A DNA stretch of 64,000 nucleotides from Mycobacteriales bacterium (GTDB lineage Bacteria; Actinomycetota; Actinomycetes; Mycobacteriales; QHCE01), in contig JABFVL010000014.1 in assembly GCA_013362805.1 (NCBI GenBank), forward strand, positions 1-64,000, written 5' to 3'. The position numbers and the translations under genes are program-made. Positions 3,053 to 56,582 of this stretch are shown here, one piece after another; within the stretch, counting starts at the first letter, position 1, and each line of letters opens with the position of its first letter. The notes below the pieces were generated by a model. That model ran no database searches, was not told where the DNA came from, and saw only the letters and a program-made list of their open reading frames with translations.

Positions 3053-3060
3053 CCGATTGA

Positions 3061-3096
3061 CTGAGGTGCCCTTACCCAAGGGCACCTCAGTTTTTT
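3061..3096 (+). terminator. Rho-independent terminator of the glu operon
   Basis: A perfect 13-bp stem (3061-3073 with 3078-3090) has a 4-base loop (ACCC) and is followed by six T residues (3091-3096). The stop codon of the convergent acetyltransferase gene lies in the T-run, so the hairpin may also serve that gene. Confidence 0.93.
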
Positions 3097-6058: not shown

Positions 6059-7204
6059 GTGACTGACTGGCGAGAACGCCACGACGATTTGGCGCGCAGA
6101 GTTTGGCTCTCGAACGACGAACGGATTCAATGGGCGCTCTCACTTCGTGATCGTTCGATACAACGTGGAGACGAACATCCGATCAGCGTTCGCTTGCTAG
6201 AACGGGGCATCGTTGCCATCCAGCTGGGTTCCAAACCAGATCAGGAGGGCGTGAAGCGAGTCGCTGTCATCGCCGATCAACACGGCGCACCAGAAAAAGA
6301 TAGCGAACGGTTCGCGCGCGATTTGGCGAACACAATGAGTCGGCCGGGCGCACTACCCGAAAACCTTTCACTGACCGTGTATCCGTGCCTAAATACTCGG
6401 GGCTATGCCCTGGGAACTCGCCTTAATGGCGACGTGATCGAGCCCAAAGATACGTTTGTTGGCTGGGAGATCGAAGGTGCAGGACACCCCGAAAAGTTCT
6501 ACATGTGGACGAAAGACGAGCGCAATCCCGAACTTTCTGGAGTGAACCTCAATGGCGCTTGGGGAAGAGTAGACGTACCTGAGATCGTTGCGGTCAGCGC
6601 AGACTTGAGAAATTATGTCGATCCTCAATGGGCTCTTGATGTGCATTCTATGAGTCGCACGCCCAAGGTTGAAACAGCGAACTCGCCCATCGAACTACCG
6701 GACATACAAGCAGCTGTCGGGTGGTCCGCGTCTGCGCAAGAACGAGCATCAATTGCGGCTGAGCTCGAGAAAACCCCCAGAGACCGGGAAGCAGCACAAT
6801 GGATTGCTTCCGCCACAACAAGCAGCGAATGGCATATCAAAGCCGCGAAACGATTGGCAGCGGCCGTCGCTCAATCGGCGCCAGGAGGAGTAACTCAATA
6901 TCCTCGCGGCATGGGCACGGGGGGAACCTTCCTGAGCTACTGCCCCACCGGTTTTGACGCGGTGCCTCTGCTGATTGAGTTAAACGAGAAATACGCACCC
7001 GTTAAAGGGCAACGCTGGCCCAACGCCTCACGTCTCATCGGTCCTACCCTCGAGGCCATAGCAGACGACACCATTTGGGACATCAATCCATCTGACGCTG
7101 ACAGAATTCCACCTCTCGCATACACATTTGGGCCACGAAAGCCACTATCAGCACGGCAACTACGTCTCGCGTCTGGCAACAAGAAGCCCTATCTCAGCTA
7201 CTGA
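6059..7204 (+). CDS. orphan protein with M14 metallocarboxypeptidase-like motifs
   Basis: I do not recognise this 381-residue protein as a named family. Its first half has a zinc-carboxypeptidase-like layout: an H-x3-E pair (His75 and Glu79 in ADQHGAPE), an Asn/Arg-rich stretch (NTRGYALGTRLNG), a GVNLNGAW segment like the DLNRNF block of M14 enzymes, and DVHS with His196 as a possible third zinc ligand. The second half (220-381) has no recognisable motif. No signal peptide or membrane segment is seen, so it should be cytoplasmic. The GTG start follows AGGGAG with 7-base spacing. It ends 8 bases from the convergent ABC exporter gene. The peptidase or amidase idea is inference. Confidence 0.5.
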   Translation: MTDWRERHDDLARRVWLSNDERIQWALSLRDRSIQRGDEHPISVRLLERGIVAIQLGSKPDQEGVKRVAVIADQHGAPEKDSERFARDLANTMSRPGALPENLSLTVYPCLNTRGYALGTRLNGDVIEPKDTFVGWEIEGAGHPEKFYMWTKDERNPELSGVNLNGAWGRVDVPEIVAVSADLRNYVDPQWALDVHSMSRTPKVETANSPIELPDIQAAVGWSASAQERASIAAELEKTPRDREAAQWIASATTSSEWHIKAAKRLAAAVAQSAPGGVTQYPRGMGTGGTFLSYCPTGFDAVPLLIELNEKYAPVKGQRWPNASRLIGPTLEAIADDTIWDINPSDADRIPPLAYTFGPRKPLSARQLRLASGNKKPYLSY

Positions 7205-14453: not shown

Positions 14454-14479
14454 AACTAATCGGCCTAGGCCGATTAGTT
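14454..14479. repeat. 26-bp perfect palindrome at the end of the membrane-protein gene
   Basis: The two 13-base arms (14454-14466 and 14467-14479) are exact reverse complements with no spacer, and contain the stop codon of the minus-strand gene at 14474. As RNA it would form an 11-bp hairpin with a CUAG loop followed by an AU-rich stretch, so it probably ends the dnaE-side transcript. It could also be a protein-binding site. Confidence 0.6.
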
Positions 14480-18800: not shown

Positions 18801-20234
18801 GTGACAGTGGACAGCGGTAAACCGGACCAACCCGAAAAGCTCACCACGCCAACGCCACACAACCTGCCACCCGACGAAGGTTACGAGCAATCGCTTGGCA
18901 ATCGCCAAGTGCAAATGATCGCGATGGGCGGAGCAATCGGTGTCGGATTGTTCCTCGGCGCCGGCGGGCGTCTTCAAGCGGCCGGCCCAGCGCTCATCCT
19001 GTCGTATAGCTTGGCGGGCATCGCCGCCTTCTTTGTGATGCGCGCGCTTGGCGAACTCGTTCTCTACCGCCCCACCTCCGGCAGCTTCGTGGACTACGCG
19101 CACGAATTCATCGGCCCATGGGCCAGCTTTGCTAGCGGCTGGATGTACTGGCTTAACTGGGCGATGACTGGCATCGCCGAGCTCACCGCCATCGCGCTTT
19201 ATATGCATCGCTGGCTACCCGATGTGCCCCAATGGGCCACGGCACTCGTCGCGCTATTTATCGTCGTCGCCGTTAACTTGATATCGGTCAAGCTGTTCGG
19301 CGAACTCGAGTTTTGGTTCGCGCTCATCAAAATCACCGCGCTGGTGACATTCCTGTTCGTTGGACTATCCCTGGTCGTTACCGCCACCAACATTGGCAGC
19401 GACCCAGCCAGCCCCGCCAACCTCACCGCACACGGCGGATTCTTCCCCGAAGGATTCCCCATTGTGCTGATGAGTTTGCAGGCCGTCATCTTCGCTTACT
19501 CCGCGATTGAAATCGTGGGCATCACCGCCGGTGAAACCAAAAACCCTCGCAAAGTGCTACCCAAGGCGATCAACGGCGTGGTGTGGCGCATCGCGATTTT
19601 CTACGTAGGTTCAGTGATCTTGCTGTGCATGCTGATGCCGTGGACCGCGTACAAAGAAGATGAAAGCCCCTTTGTCACGGTGTTCAGCGCGCTCGGTGTG
19701 CCGGGCATCGGCGATGTCATGAATCTGATCGTGCTCACCGCCGCCATGTCTTCTTGCAACTCGGGGCTCTACTCCACTGGTCGCATCCTGCGCTCGATGG
19801 CACGCAAAGGTGAAGCTCCGGCGATCACTGGAAAGTTGAACTCCAACAAAGTTCCCTACGGCGGGATTCTCTTCACCGCCAGCGCATACGTTGCCGGGGT
19901 GGTCTTGAACTATGTCGTGCCCCAAAAGGCCTTCGACATCGCCACCGCTATCGCCTCGCTCGGCGTTATCACTACCTGGGCTGTGCTCGTTATTTGCCAA
20001 ATGCAGCTGCGCAAATCCGCTTTGCGCGGCGAACTTGAACGTCCCGATTTCCGCATGCCCGGCGCGCCCGTGACGGGCTGGCTCACTCTTGGGTTTCTCG
20101 CGCTGATCCCGATTTTGATGGCCTTCGCCGACATCGAACAACAAATCGCAGTTGCGTCCATCCCCGCAATTGCTGGTGCTATCGCATTGGGCTGGCGGTA
20201 CGTCACCAACAAACGACAACGAACAGCCAGTTAA
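18801..20234 (+). CDS. amino acid permease, AAT family (asparagine permease-like)
   Basis: The 477-residue transporter has about 12 membrane helices and the APC-superfamily start motif MGGAIGVGLFLGAGG in helix 1. SAIEIVGITAGETKNP is the typical conserved block after helix 6. The pattern fits the AAT family of proton-coupled amino-acid importers. The closest type by eye is the L-asparagine permease AnsP, but proline or aromatic permeases cannot be excluded. The GTG start follows GGTGGAG. The 209 bases upstream of it, shared with divergent dnaE, hold a possible -10 (TACGAT) and no gene. Confidence 0.85.
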   Translation: MTVDSGKPDQPEKLTTPTPHNLPPDEGYEQSLGNRQVQMIAMGGAIGVGLFLGAGGRLQAAGPALILSYSLAGIAAFFVMRALGELVLYRPTSGSFVDYAHEFIGPWASFASGWMYWLNWAMTGIAELTAIALYMHRWLPDVPQWATALVALFIVVAVNLISVKLFGELEFWFALIKITALVTFLFVGLSLVVTATNIGSDPASPANLTAHGGFFPEGFPIVLMSLQAVIFAYSAIEIVGITAGETKNPRKVLPKAINGVVWRIAIFYVGSVILLCMLMPWTAYKEDESPFVTVFSALGVPGIGDVMNLIVLTAAMSSCNSGLYSTGRILRSMARKGEAPAITGKLNSNKVPYGGILFTASAYVAGVVLNYVVPQKAFDIATAIASLGVITTWAVLVICQMQLRKSALRGELERPDFRMPGAPVTGWLTLGFLALIPILMAFADIEQQIAVASIPAIAGAIALGWRYVTNKRQRTAS

Positions 20235-20236
20235 CT

Positions 20237-22483
20237 TCAACTGGGACGAGCTCTCAGCGGCCTAGTTTCTCGAGCAGGTCCGCTCGGGAGTTGTGACTGT
20301 GCCGAACTCGCATGACGACTCGCCGACATAATCATGGGCAATAGTTCGAGAATCGCGGACGCGCGCTGCGGCCATTTCCATCGGTTCGCCCAATCCTGTT
20401 CTCGTATCGCATCACTTTCCGTAACGGTGAGCGCTTCGCGCAACGACGCCGGATAGGAAGCGGTTATCTGAGGATCAGCCCGGGCTATTCGACCAACAGC
20501 ATTGCTTGCCTGCTGGTCATTTCCAGGCACAACAACGATTGGCCGCCCCGGAAATATGTCTCGAACACGTTCTAAAGCCTCAGCAAGTTGTGCATCGACA
20601 CCTGCCCTGTATGAAAGACCAGGACCGTCACCCGGACGATAGTACGGCGCCTCGCTGAATCCACACTCAACCACATCAGCCGTCGTGCCGGATAGGAATT
20701 CAACGGCCGCATGGTCAAGACTTCCGAAGTCGGATGATTTACCCCCTCGGGCTACAACAATGACCGGTAGGGGCGAATCCGCAGCGAATTCAGCTTCCTC
20801 ACTACGAGCCTTCCAAACTCGAGAAAAAGATCCGTTATATATCCCAGTCGCGGATTTCCCTAGGTACAGCAGGCGTGATTCATGAGAATCGATTGTGGGC
20901 GGTTCGGACAGAGCTCTCATTGCCTCAGCTAGCCTGACCTCCGCCCGCAGGTTCTTCGTCGAAGGTTCAACCTTCGGAGCAACATGGCCATAGGTGGTAT
21001 TTAACTCCGACAGCCGCTGCTTGTGCCTGTCCCGAAAATCGGGTTGCGCCTCAGGCATTGCGGCGAGCGCCGTGAGCGACTGGTGCTCAAGGCGAATAAT
21101 CGCCGCTCGATGAACCCGATCGGCAAGATCAATAGGGACGCCATCAGGCATGATCGGCAAGCTGTGCAGCCAAGCCATTGCTTGGCGTTCGCTGAGTCCG
21201 TCGCATATTCCCCGGACAACGGGTGGAAGGTTTTCACTAACCACCGAAATGTACTGGGGCAAATCTTCCGGCGATCCGACCAAGTCACGTTCGATATTCG
21301 CCGCTCGCCTACGCGCCTGTTCCGCGATTTGCTCGGGTGTCTCAATCGATGGCTCTTCCTCCCCTTGAGTTCCTTTAGCCAAATCAACTACAGCAAGCGG
21401 GGAATGACTATCCGTCTTAAGTTCACGGGCCAACTGTGAGGTACCAAGTGTGAGCCGGATCGCTTGATCATCACGCACCCATAAATCGTTAAGAACCGCA
21501 TGCGCGTATGGCGGCGCTAAAGCCCCGGGGTGTACTCCCACCGTGCCAAACAGCCGGACGAAATTAGCGGCACGCCAGGTGGCGCCAGTTGGGTCTACGG
21601 CAGAGGCAAGGGGCAGAACCTCAACTACCAGTCTTTCGGGGGCCTCGGCGTTCTCACGGGCCATCACGCGTGAAGTGTTGTCACTAGCTTGTAAGAAATT
21701 CGCGCTCTCAGCGGGAGTGTCCGCCGCGTCACGGACCACGATGACCGCGCTTTCCCGATTGATGGCACGGAGATCAGGATTTGGCCACTCATGATCCATC
21801 GGGACTACCCAGTCGACATTCAACGGAACCCAATGCGCGACAGCGATATGTCCATTGTGTGCGGCGATAATCCCGAGGCCAGGACGCCGTGGGCTTAATG
21901 TCGCGGCCAGTTGGCCCGCCCGTGCGGTCAGCACTTGAACGTTAGCGTCGCTCATCATCATGCCGCTCTCGCCAGTCCAACGCACGCCTCGCGGCCGGTG
22001 GGTCCCCAGGTCATCGTAAATTTGCTGCAGCTCAGGCTCGATGGAAGCATCTTGGTTCCGCAGCTGATCTATCGTGCGCACGAACGCCTCGCTCAGAACA
22101 GCGCGTATTGAAGGTTCAGCCACCCCCGGGGGAACACCGGGCAGCGCGGCTACGGTCTCAGGGCTTAAATTCGCCAACGCCTCGGCGAATTGTTGAATCC
22201 GCTCAGCCGTTTTACTTTCATAGCTGTCCCTGACAAGCCAGGAAAATATTAGGCCCGCGTTATATATGGCCGCTTTGGGAGTTTCCTCCCGGCGAGCAAG
22301 TGTCAGAAATACTTCAGCTGCCTGTTCTGGGAGCTGAGGAGCAATGGCACGCATATGCTCAGCCCCATCTGAATGAGCGGCTCTATCTCCTCGCGAAAAC
22401 CGGACGCCGCCCTCAGTATCTGGTAGGCGGAACCCCAGTTCACTTGCTAATTGCCGATACGTGAGCCCCACTGCCACTGCCAT
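20237..22483 (-). CDS. orphan 748-residue protein of unknown function
   Basis: I do not recognise this protein. It has no signal peptide or convincing membrane helix. The N-terminus contains LTYRQLASELGF, which could be a helix-turn-helix start. A region around 360-410 is acidic and helical (PSIETPEQIAEQARRRAANIER). The C-terminal third has alternating strands and helices (LPVIVVARGGKSSDFGSLDHAAVEF, then GRPIVVVPGNDQQASNAVGRIA), suggesting a Rossmann-like or phosphoryl-transfer fold. The start has AGGGGG upstream and a 13-bp inverted repeat 17 bases before the ATG. It lies between rluD and a convergent permease gene. The two stops are 2 bases apart. Confidence 0.6.
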   Translation of the reverse strand: MAVAVGLTYRQLASELGFRLPDTEGGVRFSRGDRAAHSDGAEHMRAIAPQLPEQAAEVFLTLARREETPKAAIYNAGLIFSWLVRDSYESKTAERIQQFAEALANLSPETVAALPGVPPGVAEPSIRAVLSEAFVRTIDQLRNQDASIEPELQQIYDDLGTHRPRGVRWTGESGMMMSDANVQVLTARAGQLAATLSPRRPGLGIIAAHNGHIAVAHWVPLNVDWVVPMDHEWPNPDLRAINRESAVIVVRDAADTPAESANFLQASDNTSRVMARENAEAPERLVVEVLPLASAVDPTGATWRAANFVRLFGTVGVHPGALAPPYAHAVLNDLWVRDDQAIRLTLGTSQLARELKTDSHSPLAVVDLAKGTQGEEEPSIETPEQIAEQARRRAANIERDLVGSPEDLPQYISVVSENLPPVVRGICDGLSERQAMAWLHSLPIMPDGVPIDLADRVHRAAIIRLEHQSLTALAAMPEAQPDFRDRHKQRLSELNTTYGHVAPKVEPSTKNLRAEVRLAEAMRALSEPPTIDSHESRLLYLGKSATGIYNGSFSRVWKARSEEAEFAADSPLPVIVVARGGKSSDFGSLDHAAVEFLSGTTADVVECGFSEAPYYRPGDGPGLSYRAGVDAQLAEALERVRDIFPGRPIVVVPGNDQQASNAVGRIARADPQITASYPASLREALTVTESDAIREQDWANRWKWPQRASAILELLPMIMSASRHASSAQSQLPSGPARETRPLRARPS

Positions 22484-22500: not shown

Positions 22501-22528
22501 ATCCGCTCGCTGTTGACAGCGAGCGGAT
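22501..22528. repeat. 13-bp inverted repeat between rluD and the 748-residue orphan
   Basis: Arms 22501-22513 and 22516-22528 are exact reverse complements with a two-base spacer. The site is 17 bases upstream of the orphan's ATG and 37 bases past the rluD stop, on the same strand. No T-run follows, so an operator for the orphan is as likely as a terminator for rluD. Confidence 0.6.
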
Positions 22529-22565: not shown

Positions 22566-23507
22566 CTAAGAGGATTCACGCGTAATGATTTCCAGTGAAT
22601 GCGCGAGGTCTTGGGGGTATGGCGCTTCAAAGCTCACCCATTCGCCGGTGTCTGGGTGAGCGAATCCCAACGTGCGAGCGTGCAGCCACTGTCGGGTTAG
22701 ACCAACACGTTTGGCCAAAGTGGGATCAGCGCCGTAGGTGATGTCACCAACGCATGGGTGGCGAATCGCTGAGAAATGCACTCGGATTTGGTGCGTGCGT
22801 CCTGTTTCAAGCTTGATTGCCAATAGGCTGGCGGCTCGGAACGCTTCGAGTGTTTCGTAGTGGGTAATGCTGTCCCGTCCACCGGCCATCACCGCGAATT
22901 TCCAGTCTTGGGAACGGTGTCGGTCGATGGGGGCGTCGATGGTGCCGCGCGACGGGTCGGGGTGGCCCTGCACGAGCGCGTGATAGCCCTTTTCAACGGT
23001 GCGTTCCTTGAAGGCCCGTTTCAGAACTGTGTAGGCGTTTTCGCTTTTGGCCACGACCATGAGGCCAGTGGTGCCCACGTCAAGCCGATGAACCACGCCT
23101 TGTCGCTCGGCGGCTCCACTAGTAGAAATGCGGTGTCCCATCGCGGCCAACCCACCGATGACAGTCGGTCCAGTCCAGCCCGGGCTTGGGTGTGCGGCCA
23201 CCCCAACGGGCTTATTCACCACGATGATCGAATCGTCGTGATACACCACTTCAAGACCCTCGACCGGTTCGGCGATGACGCTGGGAGGGGCGGGCGGCGC
23301 CGGAAGCGTGATTTCCAGCCAGGCGCCAGCGGTCGCTTTTGTCGATTTCGCCGCGACGCTGCCATCAAGGAGGGCATCGCCGGATTCAATGATTGTCGCG
23401 GCGACTGTACGAGACAATCCGAACATCCGAGCCAAAGCGGCATCAAGGCGCTGGCCGGCGAGCCCATCGGGAACGGGCAGGGCGCGGTATTGCGGGTTAG
23501 CTTCCAT
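22566..23507 (-). CDS. rluD: RluD-family 23S rRNA pseudouridine synthase
   Basis: The 313-residue protein should isomerise uridines of 23S rRNA. An N-terminal S4 RNA-binding domain (residues about 14-70) is followed by the catalytic domain with the RLD motif ([13 protein letters not shown], catalytic Asp143), then [13 protein letters not shown] and the C-terminal block. In most actinobacteria rluD follows lspA directly; here a regulator and an ABC exporter lie between them. The exact target positions are inferred from the family. Confidence 0.92.
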
Positions 23508-48570: not shown

Positions 48571-48590
48571 TTTTATCGGCGAACGCCAAT

Positions 48591-48636
48591 AAAAATGGGC
48601 TGAACCCACCGTTTGGCGTGGGTTCAGCCCATTTTT
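48591..48636. terminator. bidirectional Rho-independent terminator
   Basis: A perfect 19-bp stem (48591-48609 with 48618-48636) and an 8-base loop end in five A and five T residues, so it works on both strands. It separates the plus-strand receiver gene from minus-strand ctaF. Confidence 0.93.
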
Positions 48637-48673
48637 ACATGTAGATCCTGATTGGCGACATGTTTGTCGCCCT

Positions 48674-56544: not shown

Positions 56545-56582
56545 CAAGTAGGCGGTTACCCAATTGGGTAACCGCCTACTTG
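56545..56582. terminator. 38-bp perfect palindrome after the erpA-like gene
   Basis: Two exact 19-base arms (56545-56563 and 56564-56582) form a 17-bp hairpin with an AATT loop, 11 bases after the stop codon. TGTGTTT follows. It is very probably the transcript end of the erpA-like gene; its perfect symmetry would allow it to work on both strands. Confidence 0.85.

Follow-up and report, generated by a model that had tools for sequence, protein, structure and literature searches.

The best explanation found for the orphan gene P0001 is that it codes for a diverged, probably non-catalytic alpha/beta-hydrolase-fold protein serving as a binding or scaffold module. The statement as a whole has a probability of about 0.4 in our estimate; it overlaps with the rival explanations weighed below, and the probabilities of the readings need not sum to one. 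The genome of this Mycobacteriales bacterium is 3.05 Mb long and consists of 93 contigs; the window, by which the whole analysed stretch of 64,000 nucleotides is meant, begins at base 1 of contig C54. A sequence-only reading had described P0001 as a single gene with no recognisable family and as the best candidate for undescribed biology in the window.

20237..22483, minus strand: P0001, 748-aa orphan gene (ORF, translation, paralogue)
G000:C40:5908-8235, same genome: paralogue of P0001, 775 aa (28% identity, E 3e-40)
21842..21862, minus strand: AHNGHIA, residues 208-214, among the best-conserved short motifs (AHDGHIA in the paralogue)

A pair of paralogues in one genome

P0001 and its paralogue are identical in 182 of 647 alignment columns, with an E value of 3e-40, so P0001 is not the single gene it had been taken for. 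As this second copy exists, P0001 is a real gene and not a chance ORF, and the two look like a lineage-private two-copy family. When aligned globally, identity is 33% at residues 1-59, 40% at residues 60-160, 24-33% at residues 161-652, and 16% at residues 653-748. The local score of residues 531-652 against the paralogue is 83, which none of 500 shuffles reached, while residues 653-748 score 24, a value as high in 380 of 500 shuffles, and the local score of residues 1-59 was equalled by 202 of 500. Since neither end stands above the shuffles, the conserved body comprises approximately residues 60-652, and neither the supposed N-terminal helix-turn-helix nor the tail is a detectable feature of the family. 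No helix-turn-helix profile of Pfam matched P0001, and this element of the sequence-only reading was not borne out.

The surroundings of the paralogue differ from those of P0001 and include a divergent 605-aa orphan, an AdoMet decarboxylase, a GNAT acetyltransferase, and a family 3 glycosidase. For the 605-aa orphan (L009; G000:C40:3651-5468, minus strand) Pfam gave nothing at E up to 0.1 and a search of 40 other genomes gave no relative; it does not resemble P0001 at E<=1.

In the family collections, the absence of a recognisable family was confirmed. A single Pfam row was obtained for P0001, with an E value of 0.23 and 11.9 bits against a cut-off of 23.4, and nothing exceeded the cut-off for either copy. 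NCBIfam, PHROGs, and PADLOC gave no match to the two copies at E up to 10, and no PDB sequence matched P0001 or the two-row profile of P0001 and the paralogue, so that no confident profile match to a known family was found. No relative appeared in tblastn searches of phages with P0001 and of plasmids with both copies, nor in pattern scans of viral contigs and GTDB genome contigs, scans that are sensitive to close relatives only.

The genome samples searched overlap, and each contains the genome of the window itself; in the rows listed for the samples of 397, 396, and 394 genomes, scoring was limited to two candidates per genome. The two-row profile found, among the matches listed, only the genome's own copies in 397 genomes of the order and in 396 genomes of the phylum. 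P0001 searched against 61 genomes gave its own two copies and one weak match in G043 (E 1.6e-4); on re-running P0001 against that locus no alignment was obtained at E<=1, and the first 300 bases of the locus look like another gene. Against the 396 genomes of the phylum P0001 gave, among the matches listed, its own copies and a 28-residue match in G775 (E 6.9e-4), which was set aside as chance-like. The paralogue, searched against 394 genomes of the class, gave its own copies and five matches with E values from 3.8e-4 to 0.009 among the matches listed. Three of these (L041, L044, and L045) recur locally, but each lies opposite a long ORF which by eye resembles another gene; the other two (L042 and L043) do not recur at E<=1, and all five were judged to be chance. 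There is no other credible relative of P0001 in what was searched, and its orphan status stands there. Unknown families of uncultivated taxa have already been catalogued (PMC10849945), and the orphan status alone is for this reason unsurprising. P0001 is an ordinary kind of orphan gene and not a new system.

According to the window ORF list and the translation, P0001 has 748 codons on the minus strand and an ATG start, with a Shine-Dalgarno-like AGGGGG five bases ahead of it. Third-position GC is 0.54 in P0001 and 0.53 in the paralogue, compared with 0.58-0.72 in most window ORFs and 0.53-0.55 in a few. A 381-aa ORF on the plus strand of the window (6059-7204) also has a third-position GC of 0.54, and Pfam gave nothing for it at E up to 0.1. 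The Kyte-Doolittle mean over 19 residues peaks at 1.07 in P0001, i.e., there is no transmembrane stretch, as had been read from the sequence. Of the acidic middle described earlier, a part remains: residues 381-530 have the highest Asp+Glu content of five segments (14.7%), but with a net charge of -4 the region is acidic to a mild degree only.

Two motif readings were discarded. GGKSS in P0001 lacks the first glycine of a Walker A motif, and the paralogue has GYKS there (by eye). WTG at residue 169 is unmatched in the paralogue, which has no WxG, so a conserved WxG motif of WXG100 type is absent from the pair. Across the genome PF06013 gave one match only at E up to 1, at C53 and not in P0001. 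This lone WXG100 gene (G000:C53:246464-246682; L066 9444-9710) lies beside a DinG-like helicase ORF (by eye), and inspection by eye of the ORFs listed in its surroundings showed no recognisable secretion genes.

Predicted fold, linker, and elbow

20312..20899, minus strand: predicted alpha/beta-hydrolase-fold domain, residues 529-724 (low-confidence AlphaFold2, Foldseek, VIA-align)
21080..21232, minus strand: DUF1023-like linker 'LSERQAMAWLHSLP..DGVPIDLADRVHRA', residues 418-468 (hhalign 31.5, E 0.0022, probability 13%)
22073..22234, minus strand: helical stretch with 'LSPETVAALPGVPPGVAE', residues 84-137, possible first copy of a DUF1023-type linker (hhalign 26.6)
20504..20539, minus strand: predicted nucleophile-elbow site IVVVPGNDQQAS, residues 649-660 (Asp656 at the serine position; no GxSxG)

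The AlphaFold2 model of P0001 was computed from the two-row alignment of P0001 and the paralogue. No hydrolase sequence was included in this alignment, and the hydrolase resemblance was therefore not put in by hand. Mean pLDDT is 38.5, with no residue above 70, and the strand-helix alternation noticed earlier in the C-terminal third is present in this low-confidence model. Against the PDB, the best Foldseek E value is 4e-3, with no row below 1e-3; 48 of the 50 rows listed are, judging by title, alpha/beta hydrolases, and the two remaining rows (ranks 21 and 42) are M17 aminopeptidases. VIA-align, which is a second look at Foldseek's own matches, gave Z 10.4 at rank 1 (rmsd 4.2, 176 aligned residues, model range 529-724) and Z 8.8 at rank 50, where the background stated for the tool, for models without a clear match, is Z 7-8 at best and 4-5 at rank 50. 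All 50 entries listed have the alpha/beta-hydrolase fold, again judging by title; most of them cover model residues from about 520 to 724, and identity is 6-17%. Foldseek against viral structures gave a best E value of 1.1e-2 and mixed rows, with several hydrolases. Structure prediction, which had been proposed for the C-terminal third, thus gave consistent fold matches at residues 529-724, but on a model of low pLDDT, and a C-terminal domain with the alpha/beta-hydrolase fold is supported by the predicted model rather than proven.

A second line of evidence concerns the family DUF1023 (Abhydrolase_8, PF06259). The motif 'LSERQAMAWLHSLP..DGVPIDLADRVHRA' was taken by us to resemble the linker of actinobacterial DUF1023 proteins, and the likeness was then tested. 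DUF1023 was found in 30 of 41 genomes of the order, the own genome included, and the comparison set consists of 26 loci from these 41 genomes, with reading frames chosen by means of a 19-sequence profile; in that first set of 19 sequences, one (L019) is probably in the wrong frame. With the 19-sequence set, residues 418-468 and 84-134 were both placed on the same linker, with scores of 29.9 and 21.6, where 60 shuffles reach 20.3. With the 26-sequence set, the two-row C half scored 31.5 in hhalign (E 0.0022 for one comparison, probability 13%) and the two-row N half 26.6 (E 0.011, probability 4%; residues 107-147 covered). None of 100 column shuffles of the C half reached its score (maximum 20.7), and one of 100 of the N half exceeded it (28.0). 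Used as single full proteins, P0001 and the paralogue scored 21.8 and 23.9, in either case at the first linker rather than the second. Among 38 other window proteins, used as single sequences, the best decoy scored 22.9, above P0001 alone; as these decoys are single proteins and the tested halves have two rows, the shuffles are the only matched control. Both the single-protein scores and the unmatched decoys make the link weaker. No signal against the DUF1023 core came from the hydrolase cores, which scored 11.3 and 13.7 (the latter in the C core), where 60 shuffles each reach 18.8 and 20.0. The 19-sequence profile, run with hmmsearch, gave P0001 6.2 bits, where the highest-scoring of 100 shuffles had 5.2; the two domains of the paralogue, with -0.3 and -1.0, are noise. 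PF06259 itself matched neither copy at E up to 10; the three matches that it has in this genome fall on C29 and C34, away from both genes. The DUF1023-like linker of P0001 is thus weakly supported by sequence comparison, not proven, and as the link consists of one motif plus the fold, P0001 was not filed as a DUF1023 member.

The rival that survives best holds that P0001 is a fast-evolving cellular protein of a different or novel fold, and that its likeness to hydrolases arises only from the weakness of the model. The low pLDDT, the weak Foldseek E values, and the missing sequence signal in the core agree with it. Against it are the VIA-align rows, uniformly of hydrolase fold and reaching Z 10.4, and the separate, albeit weak, sequence link to the linker of a hydrolase family; on balance we regard an artefact as unlikely, though deserving serious weight.

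A lower probability was given to a tandem of two degenerate, non-catalytic DUF1023-type units at residues of about 85-345 and 400-724, an arrangement which is compatible with the best explanation. The two-row N half (26.6) and C half (31.5) both match one DUF1023 linker, each full protein alone matches best at the first linker, and by eye the two halves of the model share a similar order of helices, a beta hairpin, strands, and a helix. Folded by itself, however, the N half has a pLDDT of 38.6, and its best Z of 6.0 lies on a helical part, with no hydrolase among the matches listed; moreover, the halves align to each other with E 0.29 only and the cores with 0.65, and one shuffle in 100 exceeds the N-half score. 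Lower again is the probability of the fuller version, in which two such units were fused, lost the serine, carry an aspartate at the elbow, and became a sensor or scaffold that one small lineage of actinobacteria retains in two diverged copies.

In the model, a strand at residues 649-653 is followed by GND and a helix at residues 657-669, with GNDQQ starting at residue 654, and Asp656 is predicted to occupy the place of the nucleophile. GxSxG was found by scanning in neither P0001 nor the paralogue, and as this canonical elbow is absent, the domain is most likely non-catalytic. The local alignment with the paralogue, in addition, stops at residue 652, at the predicted elbow. The similarity of the paralogue fades where the catalytic elbow should begin, whereas catalysis by a mechanism common to both copies would have left the reverse pattern; decay of the paralogue alone could also account for the loss in the tail.

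Asp656 could instead be the nucleophile of an active alpha/beta hydrolase with a small-molecule substrate. Aspartate nucleophiles occur in haloalkane dehalogenases and epoxide hydrolases, Asp656 stands in elbow position between the predicted strand and helix, the paralogue has an Asp (HED) at the same position by hand alignment, and the Foldseek and VIA-align matches are of hydrolase fold. However, neither a catalytic His nor the acid of a triad was identified, the paralogue tail has no similarity detectable above shuffles (380/500), and the small residues usual around a hydrolase nucleophile are mostly missing (GNDQQ, HEDAA). An active enzyme of this kind appears improbable, clearly more so than an artefact of modelling.

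We infer instead a non-catalytic role with a binding function. P0001 and the paralogue would be lineage-private soluble proteins in which the alpha/beta-hydrolase-fold domain, perhaps descended from DUF1023 (Abhydrolase_8) proteins of actinobacteria, comes after a long N-terminal and middle part that is mostly helical. Lacking GxSxG, the domain would be a pseudohydrolase that serves for binding or as a scaffold, with a ligand or a partner protein possibly bound in its pocket or on its surface, and the helical part may supply a second contact surface.

Gene neighbourhood and inverted repeat

18801..20234, plus strand: amino acid permease, convergent neighbour (Pfam PF00324, ORF)
22501..22528: perfect inverted repeat, 13-bp perfect arms with a 2-nt spacer
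22566..23507, minus strand: rluA-type pseudouridine synthase, upstream neighbour (Pfam PF00849, ORF)

The permease and P0001 are convergent, with stops 2 bp apart, and nothing points to a common pathway. Stretches upstream of dnaE were compared from six relatives, that of G009 being 615 bp only. In G001, G005, and G010 the genes traR, lspA, and rluA precede dnaE in that order, and neither P0001 nor the permease is present between rluA and dnaE in any of these three relatives in which rluA was found; no rluA was found upstream of dnaE in G007 (13.0 kb) or G012 (11.7 kb). As the interval of the relatives is without both genes, P0001 probably lies in a variable slot, and the slot between rluA and dnaE may exchange genes. 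The interval of G001, a member of the same family (L059 254-2803), carries an ATPase-like ORF and a Phd/RelE-like antitoxin/toxin pair (by eye).

The least probable of the rivals, that P0001 is a defence or other mobile cargo gene in a variable slot, could draw on its absence from the three relatives together with the permease, the ATPase-like ORF and toxin-like pair of G001, its lower third-position GC, and the other orphan (605 aa) adjoining the paralogue, but it is opposed by the lack of a PADLOC match for either paralogue at E up to 10, of a recombinase among the neighbouring ORFs (by eye), and of relatives in the phage, plasmid, and viral collections. The survey of neighbours in other strains, proposed with defence genes in mind, thus suggests a variable slot, which carries other ORFs in G001.

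The inverted repeat, described earlier as private to P0001, is real and occurs in one place of the genome even when up to 3 mismatches are allowed, but a regulatory role for P0001 is not indicated, because it lies 37 bp beyond the rluA stop (22566), ahead of the P0001 start (22483), and resembles hairpins at gene ends. With a stem of 10 or more and a loop of 2-8 as criteria, five perfect hairpin sites are present in the window, all five at or within approximately 40 bp of an ORF 3' end according to a crude gene list. The other four are at 3060-3091, 14454-14479, 48590-48637, and 56545-56582; five T follow the hairpin at 3060 and none that at 14454. RNA of the interval between rluA and P0001 folds strongly (z -3.4; one of 200 shuffles equally strong). 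Most likely the repeat is the terminator of rluA. No T run follows it, however, and it is not among the finds of a terminator scan of the window, the four finds of which are not above shuffles (mean 4.9); for these reasons the repeat may have a role for P0001, and the operator reading was ranked second.

Comparison with known hydrolase-fold proteins

With a hydrolase-like fold suggested for its C-terminal domain, P0001 has a weaker claim to be the best candidate for undescribed biology; the mystery is probably smaller than it seemed, with a diverged hydrolase-fold protein as the most likely content. If this is right, an unknown protein of little-studied bacteria becomes readable, and a pair of natural variants is available for asking how an enzyme fold loses catalysis.

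In 2005, Zheng and colleagues reportedly placed DUF1023 among the alpha/beta hydrolases. Its proteins carry the linker 'WW..L....Q.......P...G.L.G.PA..RD.ANR' ahead of the hydrolase domain. P0001 has a weakly similar linker and, likewise, a predicted hydrolase-fold domain at the C-terminus, but differs by the lack of a Pfam match, of the GHSYG elbow, and of detectable similarity in the core, and by a long N-terminal part of its own. A passage of a review mentions a lid insertion at strand 4 of the family (PMC11878206), and a mutation table of a Micrococcus luteus transformation study includes a DUF1023 gene (PMC8467076). No report of a serine-less DUF1023 relative was found among the open-licence papers listed. 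With esterases and oligopeptidases (such as 3nuz, 8vca, 2wtn, and 1qfm), the predicted fold of P0001 agrees at residues of about 529-724, but unlike these enzymes, P0001 and the paralogue have no GxSxG. GID1, the gibberellin receptor, is a hydrolase-fold protein serving as a receptor; its structures 2zsh and 3ed1 match the P0001 model with Z of 9.2 and 8.9, and while it has no specific sequence link to P0001 and is cited solely as a precedent, it is a precedent for the non-catalytic role proposed here.
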